DNA from: a virus
Strand: one strand, 5' to 3'
DNA: 20,839 nucleotides
IMG/VR virus record: IMGVR_UViG_3300032241_002371
Coordinates: 1-20,839 of that record
A program made the position numbers and the translations under genes. The notes beneath the pieces are model-generated. The model saw only the letters and a program-made list of their open reading frames with translations. It made no database searches and was not told where the DNA came from. Shown in pieces: positions 5,472-20,101 of the stretch (the first letter of the stretch is position 1; each line of letters begins with the position of its first letter).

Positions 5472-5831
5472 ATGTACAACAATTTACCATATACAACACC
5501 GCCCAGCGCCGCGGATCAAGCATACAATAATCAATTTAACATACCTTTTGGTTTAGATTCTAATGTGTTCGCACTGATGAAAGGTTTTTTCGAAAGTCGT
5601 AGTTTTGATAGTGTGGCAGCTGAAGTATTGGCCGTCACTTTTATGCAGCAAGCAGCAGCAGACAACTACAATCCCATGGAAGTATTGACACAATTAAAAG
5701 GTGTTGACAGTGTAAAATTGAATGCCATTGCTATTGAATTAATTAACTATAACAGATACAAAACAAGTTACCTAGGAACTAACAGAGGGCTTAATACTTT
5801 TCAACCAGTGAGTAGAAATGTTTTACCATGA
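5472..5831 (+). CDS. Conserved-looking hypothetical protein in the tail/head gene block
   Basis: A protein of 119 residues that I do not recognise. The N-terminal 25 residues are N/P/Y-rich and probably extended. The middle (about 35-100) looks helical, with a segment centred on SVAAEVLAVTFMQQAAADNYNPMEVLTQLKG. There is no signal peptide or membrane segment. It starts one base after the stop of the preceding gene, and its stop overlaps the next ATG (ATGA at 5828-5831), so it is translationally coupled to the gp4 gene. Its context suggests a small virion or assembly protein, which is inference only. Confidence 0.65.
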   Translation: MYNNLPYTTPPSAADQAYNNQFNIPFGLDSNVFALMKGFFESRSFDSVAAEVLAVTFMQQAAADNYNPMEVLTQLKGVDSVKLNAIAIELINYNRYKTSYLGTNRGLNTFQPVSRNVLP

Positions 5832-6274
5832 GTCTTAAATTTTCTAAAGGTATATATAAGATAAAAAATGTTGAAAAATATGTAGGTTCAAAAAGTCCTG
5901 TATATCGTAGTGGTTGGGAACAGACATTTATGATGTTCTGTGACAACAATCCTGCTATATTGGAATGGGCCAGCGAACCTATTAAAATACCTTATAGAGA
6001 TCCTCTCACAGGAAAACAAACAGTTTATGTTCCTGACTTTCTAATAAAATATGTAGATCGTAATCAAAAGATGCATGTCGAGGTAATTGAAATAAAACCC
6101 GAAAATCAACAGATATTAGAAAAGGTTGGTAAAAATCCTTACAATCAAGCTCAGTTTGTAAAAAATATGGCCAAATGGGATGCAGCAAATAAATTCTGTA
6201 AACAGCGAGGAATTTTATTTAGAATTATCAACGAGCATAATTTGTATCATCAGGGCAATAAAAAAAATAAATAA
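5828..6274 (+). CDS. 4: Head completion nuclease, T4 gp4-like
   Basis: Close in length (148 against about 150 residues) and pattern to T4 gp4, which finishes the filled head before tail attachment. Visible signatures are KNVEKYVGSKSPVYRSGWE near residues 13-31, NPAILEWASEPIKIPY at 41-56, YVPDF at 67-71 and EVIEIKP at 85-91. E31, D70, E88 and K90 form a PD-(D/E)XK (TnsA-like) nuclease site. The C-terminal part has a helix (QFVKNMAKWDAANKFCKQRG) and a final strand. The start overlaps the previous stop (ATGA). Family assignment is firm from the motif set; nuclease activity is inferred from the intact catalytic residues. Confidence 0.9.
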   Translation: MSLKFSKGIYKIKNVEKYVGSKSPVYRSGWEQTFMMFCDNNPAILEWASEPIKIPYRDPLTGKQTVYVPDFLIKYVDRNQKMHVEVIEIKPENQQILEKVGKNPYNQAQFVKNMAKWDAANKFCKQRGILFRIINEHNLYHQGNKKNK

Positions 6275-12504: not shown

Positions 12505-13473
12505 ATGGCAACGCTTCAAGAAATTCGTGCAAAACTTCAGGCAGCATCACAACAAAGCTCCAATAGCGGTAGCGGAGACAATCAAATTTATCCCCATTGG
12601 AATATTGCAGAAGGAACTAGTGCTACAGTTCGTTTCTTGCCCGATGGAGACCCCAACAATACCTTTTTTTGGATCGAACGAGCAATGATCAAATTGCCTT
12701 TCGCCGGAATCAAAGGGGAAACTAATAGCAAACCGACTCAAGTTCAAGTTCCTTGTATGGAAATGTGGGGCGAGACATGCCCAATTCTTACTGAGGTACG
12801 CCCTTGGTTCAAAGATAAGAGCCTTGAAGAAATGGGTCGTCGATATTGGAAAAAGAAATCATACCTTTTCCAAGGTTTCGTAGTTGAAAGTAAATATCAA
12901 GAAGATAAAACCCCCGAAAATCCTATTCGCAGGTTTATTATTGGTAGTCAAATTTTTAATATCGTAAAAAACGCACTTATGGATAGTGAGATCGAGGAAC
13001 TACCTACTGACTATGTTCGTGGACTCGATTTCAAAATCGTTAAGACCAGCAAAGGCGGCTACGCAGATTATAGTACATCAAATTGGGCGCGTCGTGAACG
13101 GGCTCTTAACGATGCCGAAAAAGCTGCAATCGACCAGTACGGACTTTTTAAACTCAATGATTTCCTTCCAAAGAAACCCACTGATGTTGAACTTAAAGTT
13201 ATTAAGGAGATGTTTGAAGCCAGTGTCGATGGCGAAGCATTTGATATGGATCGTTGGGGTCAATATTATAAACCTGCTGGTGCAGCCCAATCTAACACTT
13301 CTAATTCATCGTCGACACGAGTATCAGCACAACAATCAAACAATGATGATGATTCTTCTGTTGAACAAGAATCGCCGAAATCTACGGTAAAGGAAACTAA
13401 ATCTTCTGGTTCAGAAGCTTCTAGTCGTGCCGCAGATATCATTAACATGATCCGTAACCGTCAGCAACAATAA
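12505..13473 (+). CDS. 32: Single-stranded DNA-binding protein, T4 gp32-like
   Basis: Coats single-stranded DNA at forks and recombination intermediates and works with UvsX, UvsY and the polymerase. Length is 322 against 301 residues in T4. The N-terminus (LQEIRAKLQAASQQ) is the cooperative self-interaction region. The core has FLPDGDPNNTFFWIERAMIKLPFAGIKG near residues 44-71, PCMEMWGETCPIL at 83-95, and YWKKKSYLFQGFVVES, FIIGSQIFNIVKNAL and DFKIVKTSKGGYADYSTSNW, matching the gp32 OB-fold. Only two cysteines (84 and 92) are seen in the zinc-binding region, so the T4 one-His, three-Cys site is not obviously complete. The C-terminal 60 residues are Ser/Asp/Glu-rich and end with a conserved-looking helix, AADIINMIRNRQQQ. 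AAGGAG ahead of the ATG fixes the start. UvsX, UvsY and UvsW follow. Confidence 0.92.
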   Translation: MATLQEIRAKLQAASQQSSNSGSGDNQIYPHWNIAEGTSATVRFLPDGDPNNTFFWIERAMIKLPFAGIKGETNSKPTQVQVPCMEMWGETCPILTEVRPWFKDKSLEEMGRRYWKKKSYLFQGFVVESKYQEDKTPENPIRRFIIGSQIFNIVKNALMDSEIEELPTDYVRGLDFKIVKTSKGGYADYSTSNWARRERALNDAEKAAIDQYGLFKLNDFLPKKPTDVELKVIKEMFEASVDGEAFDMDRWGQYYKPAGAAQSNTSNSSSTRVSAQQSNNDDDSSVEQESPKSTVKETKSSGSEASSRAADIINMIRNRQQQ

Positions 13474-13539: not shown

Positions 13540-14288
13540 GCAAATATATTATGTCTATGCCTATCTCAGAAGGTCAAATGGGACTCCGTATTATATCGGT
13601 AAAGGAAAAAAATAATAGAGTATTTGAATCTCATGGTAGGATATCCGTTCCAAAAAATCGTAATTATATTGTAATGCTTGAACAAAATTTAACCAACGTA
13701 GGAGCATGTGCAATAGAACGTAGAATGATTAGATGGTACGGTCGCAAAGATTTAGGTACAGGAATATTATTAAACTTAACCGACGGTGGTGAAGGGTTAA
13801 GCAACCCCGGGCCTTCGACTAGAGAACAAATGAAAGAAAATATCCGCAATGGAGTAACAGGAATGAAAAATAAATCTCATTCCGAAAAAACTTTGCAGAA
13901 AATGAGTAATTCTGCTAAATCTCGAGGATTTACCGAAGAACATTTGAATGCGATAAGATTATCAAATTCAAAACGAAAAGGTAGAAAAGAGGATCCGGAA
14001 GTTGGTAAAAAAAGAGGAGAGGCAATAAGTAAGGCTAAAAAAGGAAAATCAAACGGCCATGTCGGTTTAAAAAGGTCCGAAGAAACTAAGAGAAGAATGA
14101 AAGAATCTCAAAAGCACTTGTCGGAAATGAAGGCTCAAACAATGAGAAAAACAATGACCGGTCGTGTAAAAACCCTAGAGGAAAAAGCCAAAATTAGTGC
14201 CTCTTTAAAGGGCAAACCTTGGAGTGAAGCAAGAAGAGCCGCACAAATTAAGAAAAAGGAAGAAAAAAATGGCAAATCGTCCATTTGA
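13538..14288 (+). CDS. GIY-YIG homing endonuclease with NUMOD3 repeats, broken by a frameshift
   Basis: Free-standing homing endonuclease of the T4 Seg/I-TevI kind, which cuts alleles lacking the gene so that it is copied in by repair. From 13538 the frame reads MQIYYVYAYLRRSNGTPYYIGKGKK and stops at 13613. The rest (NNRVFESHGR onward) is in the +1 frame and continues to 14288. Removing one A from the A7 run at 13606-13612 joins them into a normal YYIGKGKNNRVFE. Remaining catalytic signs are R of NNRVF, E of ACAIERRMIRWYGR and N of ILLNLTDGGEG. Then come NUMOD3 DNA-binding repeats (KSHSEKTLQKMSNSAKS; GLKRSEETKRRMKES; a third near LEEKAKISASLKGKPWSE). A start at 13551 would lack the GIY-YIG core. 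The 3' end overlaps uvsX by 20 bases. Either a real pseudogene, a sequencing error, or slippage-dependent expression. Confidence 0.85.
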
Positions 14289-16148: not shown

Positions 16149-17339
16149 ATGATTTACATAGAAGATATTATTTCTAAGATTTACAGATCACCTAACAGAG
16201 TGTTCAACCTATGGGATAATAAAATTATTGATAGTTTCTACTACCAAATTCTCGATGGTTTCTCATTAACGGAAAAACAAGCCGCATTGGCCGTTAAAAT
16301 CTTAAAAAAACATAATAAAATAATTTCTAAAATTTTTATGCAAGATGTAACAAATGATTTGGAATCTCCTAACTTTAAATTAGGGATTAGAAAAATTGTT
16401 TCTTTGAAGAAAATTGAAATTATTAAGGATAATGTGTATGGCAAGGTCGCTCGAGCTATTTTTCCATATAACGAAAATATAATTAAAAAAATTAGGGATA
16501 ATAAAGAAAAATTTGGATTTGCAATGTGGGATAAAGAGGCAAAATGTTGGAATTTTCCTCTAAACGAAAATTTTATTAAGTTTCTCAGTGAGTTGTCTAA
16601 TGAAATGTTCTTTGACACAGATGACGAATTTAAACAGTTAGAACAACAAATAAAAAATATTATCAATGATATGGAAAAATATGCCCCAATTTTGGCATAC
16701 GAAGACAATCACTTCAAAATTATTAATTCTCCATACATCAATTTAGATTTGAAGAACGCAACACTACTAGAGGCAATCTTTGAGGCAAGAAAATATGGAA
16801 TAACTACTTGGGATTCAACCATCGAGGACATGATTCAAAATTCAAATATTGACCATATTACAAAATTATTTTTGAAAACAGATCCAAAGGAAAAAATTTC
16901 CATTAATAATCAATATGCAGAAATTTCTTGTCTATCGAATATCGTAAAATATTTGAGTCCTTGCCTTATAATTATACCTGGCGGTGATGAATTACAAATT
17001 CTATCAAACACACACAAATTTTTATCTGAACAGAATTTTAAAAATGAGGAAATTAGTGTAATGTTTAGATTACCCAGTGACTCTTATAAACAATTCAATG
17101 AATTTGTTAAGGATAACCATTTGAATTCACCGGTGAACGAAAAAACAAAAATTGTTTTTATCAGTGGAAAATTACCTAAACCCATGATAAAATCAAATAT
17201 TAAATTTAATAGTATTATTAATTTTGGACTACACAACCCACACTTTTCTATGCGAGACTATATTACACATCATGAAAATTGTGTGATATTTTCTAACGGT
17301 AGAACTCATAAGGATAACGCAATTGTCCAAGTCATGTAA
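16149..17339 (+). CDS. Hypothetical protein with possible HARP-like segment, between uvsY and uvsW
   Basis: 396 residues, not firmly recognised. Residues about 40-55 read FSLTEKQAALAVKILKKHNK, like the ends of helicase accessory helices. Residues about 102-145 (ARAIFPYNENIIKKIRDNK, then KEAKCWNFPLNENFIKFL) resemble the HARP domain of SMARCAL1-type annealing helicases: F-x-Y, helix, then W-x-F-P-L and helix. The C-terminal half (YLSPCLIIIPGGDELQILS, KTKIVFISGKL, SIINFGLHNP) looks like a Rossmann or RecA-type fold without a Walker A motif, so a degenerate helicase half is possible. Its setting suggests a role with UvsW in fork remodelling; this is inference. It is richer in Lys and Asn than its neighbours. 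The uvsW start overlaps its last 17 bases. Confidence 0.75.
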   Translation: MIYIEDIISKIYRSPNRVFNLWDNKIIDSFYYQILDGFSLTEKQAALAVKILKKHNKIISKIFMQDVTNDLESPNFKLGIRKIVSLKKIEIIKDNVYGKVARAIFPYNENIIKKIRDNKEKFGFAMWDKEAKCWNFPLNENFIKFLSELSNEMFFDTDDEFKQLEQQIKNIINDMEKYAPILAYEDNHFKIINSPYINLDLKNATLLEAIFEARKYGITTWDSTIEDMIQNSNIDHITKLFLKTDPKEKISINNQYAEISCLSNIVKYLSPCLIIIPGGDELQILSNTHKFLSEQNFKNEEISVMFRLPSDSYKQFNEFVKDNHLNSPVNEKTKIVFISGKLPKPMIKSNIKFNSIINFGLHNPHFSMRDYITHHENCVIFSNGRTHKDNAIVQVM

Positions 17340-18348
17340 AGTCGTTATCAAGGATGAAGTGAATGTTAAGATTGAAAACCTCGATCTTGACACAAGAAAG
17401 TTCTTGGTCCGTAAATTTAAGTACGAAGACCCCTCTGCTAGGTTCAGACCTTCATATAAATTAGGTCGATGGGATGGTACAGTGAGTTTTTTCGGTCTCG
17501 GTGGTACTACCTATCTTTCCATGCTACCACAGGTCTTGGAATACCTTGAAGAAAAAAATTATTATATCGAGCTTGAGGATCATAGAAACCCCACTGACCT
17601 AAAATTTGACGAAATTTCCGAGGATTTTTGGGGTGATAGAACTTGGCCTAAGGGTCATAGGTTCGAAGGACAACCCATTAGACTGAGAGATGATCAAGTC
17701 GAGGTTATTAATAAATTTTTAATCAATCCTCAATGTATTCAGGAAATCTCTACCGGTTTTGGGAAAACCATTACCACCGCAACTTTAGCGAAAATTTGCG
17801 AAAAATATGGTAGAACCATTACCATCGTACCTAACAAATCTTTGGTCGAACAAACCGAAGAAGATTTTATTAATTGCGGGCTCGATGTTGGTGTTTACTA
17901 CGGAGATAGAAAAGAGCTGGGTCATACACATACGATTTGTACATGGCAAAGTTTGAACATTTTAGATAAAAAATCCAAAGATTTTGATGTTGATCCAGAA
18001 ATGTTAACACTGGCAGAATTGTTAGAAGCTGTGCAATGTGTTATGGTAGATGAATGTTTTTCCGGTGATAGTAAAGTATTAACTGCCAACGGTTACAAAG
18101 CAATTAAAGATATACAAACAGGTGATGAAATCATAAACTATTCCGAAGATACACAAAAATTCAAAGTAGATACTGTAATTAAACAACATAAAAATTTAAC
18201 AAAGTCACTCAGTGAAAAAATGTATGAAATGGAATTTGATAATGGATCTAAAATACAAGTGTCGGGAAATCATAAGTTTTTAACTAATTTAGGATGGGTA
18301 CGTGCCGATGAGTTAACAAATGACCATGAAATTATAAATAACACATAA
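17323..18348 (+). CDS. uvsW: UvsW helicase N-terminal part fused to N-terminal split-intein domain
   Basis: UvsW is an SF2 helicase that unwinds R-loops, regresses forks and migrates branches. The start is TTG at 17323, with AAGGA eight bases upstream. Residues 1-60 form the UvsW N-domain (RKFLVRKFKYEDPSARFRPSYKLGRWDGTVSF, close in pattern to T4). Walker A is STGFGKT at 143-149, and motif Ia-like IVPNKSLVEQTEEDF follows. Residue 244 is the Glu of VMVDE; then the intein begins at Cys245 (CFSGDSKVLTANG) and runs 97 residues to a TAA at 18346. Host sequence resumes only at 19370 with CHMAKAD, completing the DECH motif. This half alone lacks the C-terminal helicase motifs, so it must be trans-spliced to be active. 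Confidence 0.92.
   Translation: MSKSCKVVIKDEVNVKIENLDLDTRKFLVRKFKYEDPSARFRPSYKLGRWDGTVSFFGLGGTTYLSMLPQVLEYLEEKNYYIELEDHRNPTDLKFDEISEDFWGDRTWPKGHRFEGQPIRLRDDQVEVINKFLINPQCIQEISTGFGKTITTATLAKICEKYGRTITIVPNKSLVEQTEEDFINCGLDVGVYYGDRKELGHTHTICTWQSLNILDKKSKDFDVDPEMLTLAELLEAVQCVMVDECFSGDSKVLTANGYKAIKDIQTGDEIINYSEDTQKFKVDTVIKQHKNLTKSLSEKMYEMEFDNGSKIQVSGNHKFLTNLGWVRADELTNDHEIINNT
18055..18345 (+). other. N-terminal split-intein domain (97 residues)
   Basis: Block A is CFSGDSKVLTANGYKAIKDI with catalytic Cys1. Block B is QVSGNHKFL, with the essential His and Ser in place of the usual Thr of the TxxH motif. The rest has the HINT fold pattern (TGDEIINY; MYEMEFDNGSKIQVSG; LGWVRADEL). The length is close to the N-part of cyanobacterial DnaE split inteins (about 102 residues). 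Confidence 0.9.
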
Positions 18349-18351: not shown

Positions 18352-18378
18352 CATATAACTAAAGCAGAAGTATTTATG
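18344..18378 (+). promoter_or_regulatory. Hairpin hiding the start codon of the intein-associated endonuclease
   Basis: CATAAATAC (18344-18352) is a perfect 9-base match to GTATTTATG (18370-18378), whose last three bases are the endonuclease ATG. The loop is 17 bases. Only transcripts coming from the uvsW promoter side carry both arms. Confidence 0.65.
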
Positions 18379-19296
18379 AAAAAAACAAATCAACAAATAA
18401 TAGATGAACTCAATGAGAGTTTGAAAAAAAATAATCAAGAAACTCGTGTTATAAAATATTCTAGTGATACCATATCGTTGGCTAACGGAACAATCTTAAA
18501 TGATAAAGAAAAGTCTCGTTTTGTTAAACGAGTAAAAAATACTAAAACAAATTTATGGGTCAAACAAATAGATAACCTGTTATCTGGAAAAATTACTGAA
18601 AAGGAAATCAAATCTAAATTAGCATCAATTGGTGGCAACTCCGTACAAAAAAAATATGGACATATTATCAAACAAAATCTTAATACAGGTAAACCCTGGA
18701 ACGCTGGTACCAAGGGACAACGTATAGGCACGTTAGGTCCACGAGATCAAAAAGTTAAGGATAAAATTAGTGAGAAGAATTCTGGCGCCGGTAACGGAAT
18801 GTACGGAATTAGAATGTCAGATGATTCTAAAAAAATGAGATCTAATTTAATGAAGAAAAAAATACTATTTGGAGAATTTACTCCAAATAGTAACAATAGA
18901 AATACCCACTGGGATTCCACTTTTAATGGTGAAAAATATAGATCAAGCTGGGAAGCCTTATATCAATACATCAATCAAACTGCTGACTATGAAAAATTAA
19001 GAATTGAATATACATTTAATGGAGATACAAAAATTTACATAGTTGATTTTGTAGATCATATAAACAAACAAGTTATAGAAGTTAAACCAAAAGAGTTATG
19101 CACCGGGAAAAAATTTCAAGCAAAACTGTCAGCATTATCTAAATGGGCAACTGCGCACAACTATACAATAACGATAGTTGATAAACAATGGTTACAGAGT
19201 CAGTTAGTAGAAATTGATTATACAAAATTTGATGATAATACTGCAAAAAAAATAAAGGCTCTATATGAAATTAATAAAAAAAATAGAAATAAGTAA
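18376..19296 (+). CDS. Free-standing homing endonuclease with gp4/TnsA-like nuclease domain, between split-intein halves
   Basis: 306 residues. The N-terminal 80 residues are helical and basic. A DNA-binding middle has NTGKPWNAGTKG at about 103-114 and NGMYGIRMSDDSKKMRSNLMKKK near 140-162, the look of NUMOD-type repeats. The C-terminal nuclease has KYRSSWEAL (E193), YIVDF (D224) and QVIEVKP (E235, K237), a PD-(D/E)XK set in the same order and wording as the gp4 gene at 5828 (YRSGWE, YVPDF, EVIEIKP). It probably cuts intein-less uvsW alleles and drives spread of the insertion. It is in the same frame as the upstream uvsW part, one stop codon away, and its 3' end overlaps the downstream part by 32 bases in another frame. 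A hairpin lies inside at 18863-18892. Confidence 0.85.
   Translation: MKKTNQQIIDELNESLKKNNQETRVIKYSSDTISLANGTILNDKEKSRFVKRVKNTKTNLWVKQIDNLLSGKITEKEIKSKLASIGGNSVQKKYGHIIKQNLNTGKPWNAGTKGQRIGTLGPRDQKVKDKISEKNSGAGNGMYGIRMSDDSKKMRSNLMKKKILFGEFTPNSNNRNTHWDSTFNGEKYRSSWEALYQYINQTADYEKLRIEYTFNGDTKIYIVDFVDHINKQVIEVKPKELCTGKKFQAKLSALSKWATAHNYTITIVDKQWLQSQLVEIDYTKFDDNTAKKIKALYEINKKNRNK
18863..18892 (+). repeat. Perfect 12-bp inverted repeat inside the endonuclease gene
   Basis: TACTATTTGGAG (18863-18874) and CTCCAAATAGTA (18881-18892) around AATTTA. It falls in the linker between the DNA-binding repeats and the nuclease domain. There is no T tract after it, so it is not a standard terminator. Confidence 0.9.
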
Positions 19297-19369
19297 ACCA
19301 AAAGAAGTATATAATTTACATATTAAGGACGATCACAACTACATTGTAGAGGGCGCAGTAGTAGCCAAT
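19265..19369 (+). other. C-terminal split-intein domain (35 residues)
   Basis: Block F is VYNLHIKDDHNYIVEG, with the His of DHNY, and block G is AVVAN followed by Cys+1. The penultimate residue is Ala rather than His, as in DnaE-type split inteins, which have Ser there. The length matches the roughly 35-residue C-parts of natural split inteins. Confidence 0.92.
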
Positions 19370-20101
19370 TGCCATATGGCCAAGGCTGACGTACTGAAAA
19401 ATCTATTAACTCGTAATTTGGCCAGTGCACCTATTAGATGGGGATTGACCGGTACTGTTCCTAAACAAGACCATGAATTTCAAAGCATTAGAGCTGCACT
19501 TGGTGAAGTTGTACATAGGGTCTTTGCTCATGAACTTCAAGAAAAAGGTGTGCTGTCCGACTGCCATGTACAAGTCGTACAAACTGCTGAATACAGAGAA
19601 TTTGGCAGCTATGCGGAAGAATTAAAATATTTGGTAACCGATAAAAATCGCATGGAATATGTTGCAAAGCTTATTAAAAATATAGTAAAATCAGGTAACA
19701 CTTTAATTCTTGTAGATAGAATCGAAAGTGGTGAATTCCTTGTAGAAAATATCCCCGACAGTGTATTCATATCCGGCAAAGTGAAAACCAAAGATCGTAA
19801 AGAAGAATATGATGAAATTAAAACTGCTGATAACAAGATTATTGTGGCGACTTATGGTGTGGCCGCTGTGGGTATTAATATTCCAAGGATTTTTAATCTG
19901 GTTCTTCTTGAACCCGGAAAAAGCTTTGTTCGTGTTATACAGTCTATTGGACGGGGTATTAGGAGAGCTGAAGATAAAGACTTTGTACAAATCTGGGATA
20001 TCACCGCAGCCACAAAATACGCCAAAAGACATCTCACGGAACGAAAACGCTACTATAAGGAAGCGAAATATCCTTTTACAATCGAAAAAGTGAAATATTA
20101 A
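19265..20101 (+). CDS. uvsW: C-terminal split-intein domain fused to UvsW helicase C-terminal part
   Basis: 278 residues. ATG at 19265 has AAAGG six bases upstream, inside the 3' end of the endonuclease gene. Residues 1-35 are the C-terminal intein domain ending in Asn35. The UvsW C-extein starts at Cys36 (CHMAKADVLKNLL, second half of the DECH motif) and has motif III GLTGT, a second RecA domain with LILVDRIESGE, motif V ATYGVAAVGINIPR and motif VI QSIGRGIRR. The C-terminal residues (KRHLTERKRYYKEAKYPFTIEKV) match the UvsW end. Joining 244 N-extein and 243 C-extein residues gives 487, close to T4 UvsW (about 503). It has its own start and ribosome site, so it can be made separately and trans-spliced. 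Confidence 0.92.
   Translation: MKLIKKIEISKPKEVYNLHIKDDHNYIVEGAVVANCHMAKADVLKNLLTRNLASAPIRWGLTGTVPKQDHEFQSIRAALGEVVHRVFAHELQEKGVLSDCHVQVVQTAEYREFGSYAEELKYLVTDKNRMEYVAKLIKNIVKSGNTLILVDRIESGEFLVENIPDSVFISGKVKTKDRKEEYDEIKTADNKIIVATYGVAAVGINIPRIFNLVLLEPGKSFVRVIQSIGRGIRRAEDKDFVQIWDITAATKYAKRHLTERKRYYKEAKYPFTIEKVKY

Follow-up and report, generated by a model that had tools for sequence, protein, structure and literature searches.

A putative homing endonuclease with a gp4/TnsA-like nuclease domain between the halves of a split intein in a phage uvsW gene

What kind of nuclease is encoded between the two halves of a split intein in a phage uvsW helicase gene, and where did this nuclease come from? 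The question is raised by a 306-residue ORF in the virus record IMGVR_UViG_3300032241_002371, which was analyzed over its entire length of 20,839 bases (referred to here as the window); the record itself has this length and is not part of a larger genome. According to the ORF list, Pfam, and PHROG, the gene content (a terminase-like gene, gp4, a RecA/UvsX-like gene, and UvsW) is that of a T4-like phage fragment, and a megablast search of the whole window against phages returned no match. The terminase is a gene that we take to be one from the ORF list and not from a family search. The first-pass annotation had proposed that the ORF shares its nuclease core with the head nuclease gp4 of the same phage. 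The reading that we consider very probable is that the ORF is a homing endonuclease located between two split-intein genes, with a C-terminal PD-(D/E)XK domain of the gp4/TnsA subtype, and that it is mobile by way of empty uvsW genes.

The UvsW gene is broken at its Walker B box, at the junction DE/C (the slash marks the intein position), and is spread over three ORFs (Table 1). The two intein halves lie on separate ORFs and carry the residues C1 and N/C+1, as is found in split inteins; the penultimate residue of the C-terminal half is Ala instead of the usual His. The last 32 bases of the endonuclease ORF are shared with the start of the C-terminal half. The TTG start of the UvsW N-terminal extein is the choice of the ORF tool, and the boundary of the N-terminal intein half was read off the sequence.

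Table 1. Features of the window that are relevant to the split uvsW gene and its endonuclease
Feature	Coordinates	Strand	Basis
gp4 head-completion nuclease, 148 aa, same phage; E31, D70, E88, K90	5828..6274	+	PHROG 218 6e-41, Pfam TnsA-like 9e-24
UvsW N-terminal extein, first 244 residues, ends ...VMVDE (Walker B)	17323..18054	+	ResIII and UvsW_N matches; PHROG 16259/16 DNA helicase
Split intein, N-terminal half, 97 aa, begins CFSGD, includes stop codon	18055..18348	+	Intein_splicing 4e-10, TIGR01445 2e-10
Putative homing endonuclease ORF, 306 aa	18376..19296	+	ORF list; relatives; AlphaFold model, mean pLDDT 86.9
NUMOD3-equivalent region, about residues 115-150	18718..18825	+	NUMOD3 at 117-152 in relatives L041, L021, L060
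gp4/TnsA-like nuclease core, residues 166-280	18871..19215	+	PHROG, Pfam in relatives, hhalign, fold, conservation
Predicted catalytic E193	18952..18954	+	
Predicted catalytic D224	19045..19047	+	
Predicted catalytic E235	19078..19080	+	
Predicted catalytic K237	19084..19086	+	
Split intein, C-terminal half, 35 aa, ends VVAN, own ATG	19265..19369	+	TIGR01443 1e-4, Intein_splicing 0.005, sequence
UvsW C-terminal extein, begins CHMAKAD	19370..20101	+	Helicase_C 5e-9; PHROG 9690/16
Left tract, 12 bases of UvsW and most of the N-intein	18043..18334	+	100% identity with L068
Right tract, endonuclease end, C-intein, 20 bases of UvsW	19064..19389	+	100% identity with L068

Similarities emerge between the endonuclease ORF and gp4. 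The motifs YRSSWE (residues 188-193), YIVDF (221-225), and QVIEVKP (232-238) correspond to YRSGWE (26-31), YVPDF (67-71), and EVIEIKP (85-91) in gp4, and their order is identical, as the first-pass annotation had noticed. Its further statement that the spacing is of the same style does not hold, since E and D lie 31 residues apart in the ORF as against 39 in gp4, and D and the next E are separated by 11 and 18 residues, respectively. Common to the endonucleases and gp4 are the motifs YRSSWE, ExxxIPY, DF, E(I/V)KP, and AKxxA..WC. As a control for chance similarity, a gp4 profile built without the gp4 of the window was run on the 152 six-frame segments of the window, and the ORF ranked second (8e-4), after gp4 itself (3.6e-70) and ahead of a next segment at 5.3; the reverse profile, made from relatives of the ORF, retrieved gp4 at 3.7e-7 with the next segment at 0.55. 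Among 1840 shuffled relatives, the best value obtained was 0.002, and a pairwise BLAST of the ORF against gp4 gave an E-value of 0.015 in a database of one sequence. Within the endonuclease family, 31 of 46 members matched the gp4 profile at E < 1e-3 (best 9.4e-9), so that the similarity is marginal for the single sequence and clear for the family, at which level chance similarity was ruled out. The PHROG 218 profile (gp4 head closure) matched the ORF at 1e-5 over residues 166-275 and was also matched by 25 of 36 relatives.

The ORF is nevertheless no gp4 proper: it lies between intein halves in uvsW, and the phage possesses a separate gp4 gene. T4 gp4 (PHROG 218, PF08722), which has the same nuclease core with E..D..ExK and a YRSxWE motif and is the best profile match, is a core gene product of about 150 residues encoded near genes 2 and 53, whereas the endonuclease is sporadic, intein-borne, 306 residues long, and equipped with an additional N-terminal part. 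The prediction of gp4 as a PD-(D/E)XK enzyme used TnsA and T7 Endo I as its templates (PMC1189080), and a later report, as cited in PMC7824862, found that gp4 has a DNase activity which packaging requires.

The assignment of the core to this nuclease type was addressed with profiles and predicted folds. In hhalign, the endonuclease family scored 98.3% against gp4 (E 2.4e-14), 92.4% against Tn7 TnsA, a weaker 80.2% against T7 endonuclease I, and 0.2% against Vsr (four Vsr proteins), with controls of 98.5% for gp4 against TnsA and 0.1% for gp4 against Vsr; the single-pair E-values are not database-calibrated, and alignment depths differ (46, 22, 15, 5, and 4 sequences). The Pfam TnsA-like family PF08722 was matched by 28 of 36 relatives (E up to 0.1, best 4.4e-10), T7 endonuclease I (PF05367) by nine, and DUF559 by three, and the 23 Pfam families to which these 36 relatives gave matches did not include Vsr (PF03852); the window ORF alone gave no match to PF08722 at E up to 1. 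The AlphaFold model of the endonuclease had TnsA as its nearest solved fold (1f1z and 1t0f, Z 7.8 and 7.5; rmsd 3.1 over 118 aligned residues), followed by an unrelated row at Z 5.3, Vsr 1cw0 at Z 5.1, and I-Bth0305I 3r3p at Z 4.7. Z-scores below 8, such as the 7.8 for TnsA, can reflect a common arrangement, and the best Foldseek hit of the model had an E-value of 0.06. The gp4 model (pLDDT 90.4) matched TnsA at Z 10.3. A PDB sequence search with the endonuclease profile returned no match at E up to 10, and the same search with gp4 returned a TnsAB fusion (0.087) and T7 endonuclease I. In the viral fold library BFVD, the top matches include phage proteins labelled 'TnsA endonuclease N-terminal domain-containing', and the entries ranked 28 and 36 carry the label 'head completion nuclease'; automatic annotation had thus already picked up the TnsA-like domain in some relatives.

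By sequence, then, the nuclease core belongs to the gp4/TnsA type rather than to the Vsr type, in agreement with the first-pass annotation, and the clear best match to Vsr/EDxHD families that would have spoken against it was not seen. In the structure comparison TnsA ranks ahead of Vsr, at modest scores. That the ORF is a divergent Vsr/EDxHD endonuclease is highly improbable: Vsr belongs to the same superfamily, and 1cw0 and I-Bth0305I do align to the same domain, but the hhalign and Pfam results argue against it, and the GxPDxV...GCFWHxH-type residues of Vsr have no counterpart that we could see, YIVDF..EVKP being present instead. A Vsr origin was ruled out by hhalign, with a profile made of Vsr proteins, and by Pfam; the fold alone would not separate Vsr from TnsA.

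The predicted catalytic residues are strongly conserved. In the alignment of 159 rows, E193, D224, and E235 are invariant wherever covered (156, 154, and 156 rows, respectively), and position 237 is Lys in 151 and Arg in five of the 156 covering rows. The E..D..ExK pattern is likewise invariant or nearly so in gp4 and invariant in TnsA. The replacement of Lys by Arg was observed in L042-L044, L073, and L074, which include Salmonella phage S16 and Proteus phage PM2, and these enzymes are possibly weakened. It is improbable that the ORF is a decayed remnant that has no nuclease activity and has been retained by chance: decay does happen, as illustrated by the relatives L068 and L069, which lack residues 1-230, and by the rows with Arg at the K237 position, but the copy in the window is full length and has intact E193, D224, E235, and K237, all of which are conserved in the family of 83 distinct sequences. 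The N-terminal part of the endonuclease probably binds DNA. NUMOD-like repeats had been suggested for it from the sequence of the ORF; this was borne out among the relatives, 19 of 36 of which matched NUMOD3 in Pfam, but not for the window ORF alone, which gave no NUMOD3 match at E up to 1. Residues 113-120 of its AlphaFold model are of low confidence. In L075-L076, L163, and L066, the nuclease core is retained, the N-terminal part differs, and the place of the NUMOD3 region is taken by zinc-finger-like or other segments.

The endonuclease belongs to a family found at several host genes. The family set comprises 157 rows from searches and fetched phage regions, corresponding to at least 83 distinct sequences as some contigs were refetched; since one family search took the best 80 of a larger number of matches, all family figures hold among the matches listed. 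N-intein, endonuclease, C-intein, and UvsW were all present in the fetched DNA for 64 of the 83 distinct relatives, and UvsW-form cassettes occur in named phages including Salmonella phage S16 and Proteus phage PM2. Six more (L026, L062, L070, L071, L184, and L197) are cut by contig ends and have UvsW-type intein halves; L070 has a divergent helicase half (26% identity). Insertions were also found in terminase genes (four relatives: L075, L076, L078, and L164), in PhoH genes of Campylobacter phages (three: L077, L162, and L163), and in clamp-loader genes (four: L065, L066, L067, and L161), the latter identified by PHROG in the two that were submitted (L066 and L161) and by eye in L065 and L067. 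A Prevotella Lak phage (L165) has a further cassette in a gene resembling uvsW, and L072 has no host-gene assignment. All junctions read outside the main UvsW set are DE/C at Walker B. A continuous single ORF was seen in none of the 141 rows that have both intein halves (near-copies counted).

Terminase inteins are split elsewhere, the N-half of L075 having about 41 residues and its C-half about 107; atypical split inteins are also represented by AceL-TerL. Thanatos-2 has its endonuclease joined in frame with the N-terminal terminase ORF, and in L223:2421-4400 the endonuclease, the UvsW N-terminal half, and the N-intein apparently form one frame of 660 residues, comparable to the Thanatos-2 fusion. 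Other free-standing ORFs with a nuclease-like SDF..E(V/I)K pattern were observed just upstream of the interrupted clamp-loader gene (L067:1109-1807 and L065:2393-2896), the former with no PHROG match at 1e-5. The C-terminal half of the clamp loader in L065:4452-6746 seemingly holds a further intein, TC/VTGDTKV..., as read from the translation.

The comparison of UvsW loci speaks for the mobility of the cassette. Among the best 80 of 556 UvsW relatives of the window's N-extein, 77 loci are uninterrupted and three contain an intein. All 77 empty alleles read DEVH, with Val after DE, and the intein alleles read DE/C..N/CH in 136 of 138 rows (one reads DSD, and one has no N side), so that the +1 Cys apparently comes with the cassette. 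In two metagenome contigs, L068 and L069, 279 bases of the N-intein, 228 bases of the endonuclease end, and 105 bases of the C-intein match the window at 100% identity. In L068, the UvsW sequence beside the element has an identity of 81.4% on the left and 72.4% on the right, and further out these values are 74.7% and 77.8%; full identity extends beyond the intein by 12 bases on the left and 20 on the right. That two contigs should both be chimeric assemblies is unlikely. The cassette in L068:1111-1727 carries the endonuclease deletion; its N-intein frame ends ...DHEITNKL, its C-intein frame is intact, and both intein halves remain open and separate.

The same picture was obtained from identity comparisons, for which the 118 rows with full parts were dereplicated to 53 UvsW relatives. 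Endonuclease and UvsW identities correlate with an r of 0.70 over the 1378 pairs. In 13 pairs the endonuclease is more similar than UvsW by at least 10 points, and in the seven clearest the endonucleases are 92-100% and the UvsW-C parts 66-85% identical. At the opposite extreme, UvsW-C parts that are 74-89% identical accompany endonucleases of only 39-55% identity, and in 1002 pairs the endonuclease is less similar than UvsW by at least 10 points, as expected of a faster-changing protein. These comparisons show, at the level of sequence, that the cassette has moved horizontally between diverged phages; ordinary phage recombination instead of homing could be the cause.

Under the homing reading that we prefer, the endonuclease would, in a mixed infection, cut an uninterrupted uvsW near its Walker B codons (DE/V), and repair from the interrupted copy would install the N-intein, the endonuclease, and the C-intein, at the same time turning the next codon from Val to Cys, a residue on which the intein depends. 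Protein trans-splicing would then join the two UvsW pieces, and the endonuclease would later have been lost in some lineages (L068 and L069). DNA cutting and its specificity, as well as trans-splicing, are predicted here by analogy with other homing endonucleases and split inteins, and we infer both the position of the cut and that the endonuclease drives the transfer. Since empty, full, and endonuclease-deleted cassettes all exist, the homing cycle is open to direct testing.

Where the nuclease came from was approached with trees. The first trees contained 43 endonucleases, namely, that of the window and 42 of the 83 distinct relatives, and the tree with T7 endonuclease I as outgroup contained 22. 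The endonucleases form one clade, with a support of 100/100 in the TnsA-rooted tree and 96/93 with the T7 endonuclease I outgroup. In the TnsA-rooted tree they nest within gp4 and adjoin window-like gp4 (97/84), and together with the best profile match and the common motifs this placement favors a capture of the nuclease from a gp4 gene, by which a packaging nuclease joined to DNA-binding modules became a homing endonuclease. A precedent is F-CphI, which has the Endo VII motif of T4 gene 49 according to PMC6083498. On the other side, the AU test did not reject gp4 as a single clade in any of three alignments (p 0.37, 0.42, and 0.09), keeping gp4 together costs 1.0-4.3 log units, the stem branch of the endonucleases is long (2.04), and with the T7 endonuclease I outgroup the best tree moves the endonucleases outside gp4 and TnsA (82/92). 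Descent from the head gene, as proposed in the first-pass annotation, is thus possible on the sequence evidence, being found under the TnsA root and depending on the outgroup; to the capture scenario as a whole we give a minority chance.

It is about an even bet that gp4 and the endonuclease, neither being the parent of the other, each arose on its own from a larger pool of phage nucleases that resemble TnsA and T7 endonuclease I. The tree with the T7 endonuclease I outgroup leaves room for this, as it allows both a grouping of the endonucleases with gp4 (p 0.38) and one with TnsA (p 0.36); the T7 endonuclease I matches among the relatives and the many phage endonucleases of similar kind in BFVD are in line with it, whereas the gp4 profile match beats those of TnsA and T7 endonuclease I, although the profile depths differ. 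A more far-reaching proposal, which we put forward tentatively, is that gp4 gave rise to a homing endonuclease that, with exchangeable DNA-binding modules and split inteins, repeatedly entered the Walker B box (DE/C) of four ATPase gene families. If so, a virion packaging enzyme would have become a gene drive that spreads through phage replication and packaging ATPases.

A comparison with known systems places the endonuclease among several related arrangements. The gene arrangement is like that of the fractured genes with split inteins reportedly described by Dassa et al. in 2009, in which the N-intein, an EDxHD/Vsr-like endonuclease, and the C-intein are said to lie on separate ORFs; the nuclease there is reportedly Vsr-like, and here it is gp4/TnsA-like. 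Tn7 TnsA, the nearest solved fold, has the same order of E, D, and ExK; TnsA works with a transposase encoded by a neighboring gene, whereas no transposase was found in the window. I-Ssp6803I, from a group I intron of a bacterial gene, was absent from the fold matches listed, which carries no evidential weight. PD-(D/E)XK is a listed family of homing endonucleases, and I-Ssp6803I is named as one of its members, in PMC6083498 and PMC3943268 (the family) and in PMC3943268 (the enzyme); by name alone, it has the broad superfamily in common with the endonuclease of the window. F-CphI resembles the latter in having the catalytic motif of a T4 core nuclease beside a self-splicing element, but it is of another nuclease type and parent gene, is linked to a group I intron, and was experimentally tested (PMC6083498).

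Split-intein cassettes with endonucleases are already known, and the work of Dassa et al. is cited for them in PMC12350094 and PMC6892783. The latter reports an HNH endonuclease between split-intein halves in phage MIJ3, so that the premise of the first-pass annotation, that endonucleases in split inteins are Vsr-like, was too narrow. For IBB_35, the PhoH and terminase genes are reported to be interrupted by inteins and introns, the terminase also carrying an HNH mobE-like enzyme, and the passages of PMC3322345 that were consulted make no mention of a gp4/TnsA-like nuclease. In the literature searched, mostly by titles and abstracts, a gp4/TnsA-like endonuclease in a split intein appears to be undescribed. 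It would be a third nuclease type in such cassettes, beside the Vsr/EDxHD type and the HNH type (PMC6892783).

The analysis also suggests a function for PHROG 22417, which is listed as unknown, and for PHROG 15427, which is listed as an endonuclease. As one clade across four ATPase families, at DE/C in the junctions read outside the main UvsW set, the enzymes offer a natural set of related putative homing enzymes directed at one protein motif, and the signs of recent transfer between phages make the cassette a good test case of how such gene drives acquire nucleases. They raise the question of whether a virion nuclease can turn into a homing enzyme, F-CphI being suggestive of this in the case of Endo VII. 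Two other ORFs of the window are of note. Directly upstream of the split uvsW gene, a 396-aa ORF (16149-17339) gave no credible match in Pfam and PHROGs. A second endonuclease-like ORF (13551-14288), which sits between ORF 12505-13473 and the RecA/UvsX gene, contains three NUMOD3 stretches (Pfam 1e-11) and matches the PHROG 314 homing endonuclease (4e-8).
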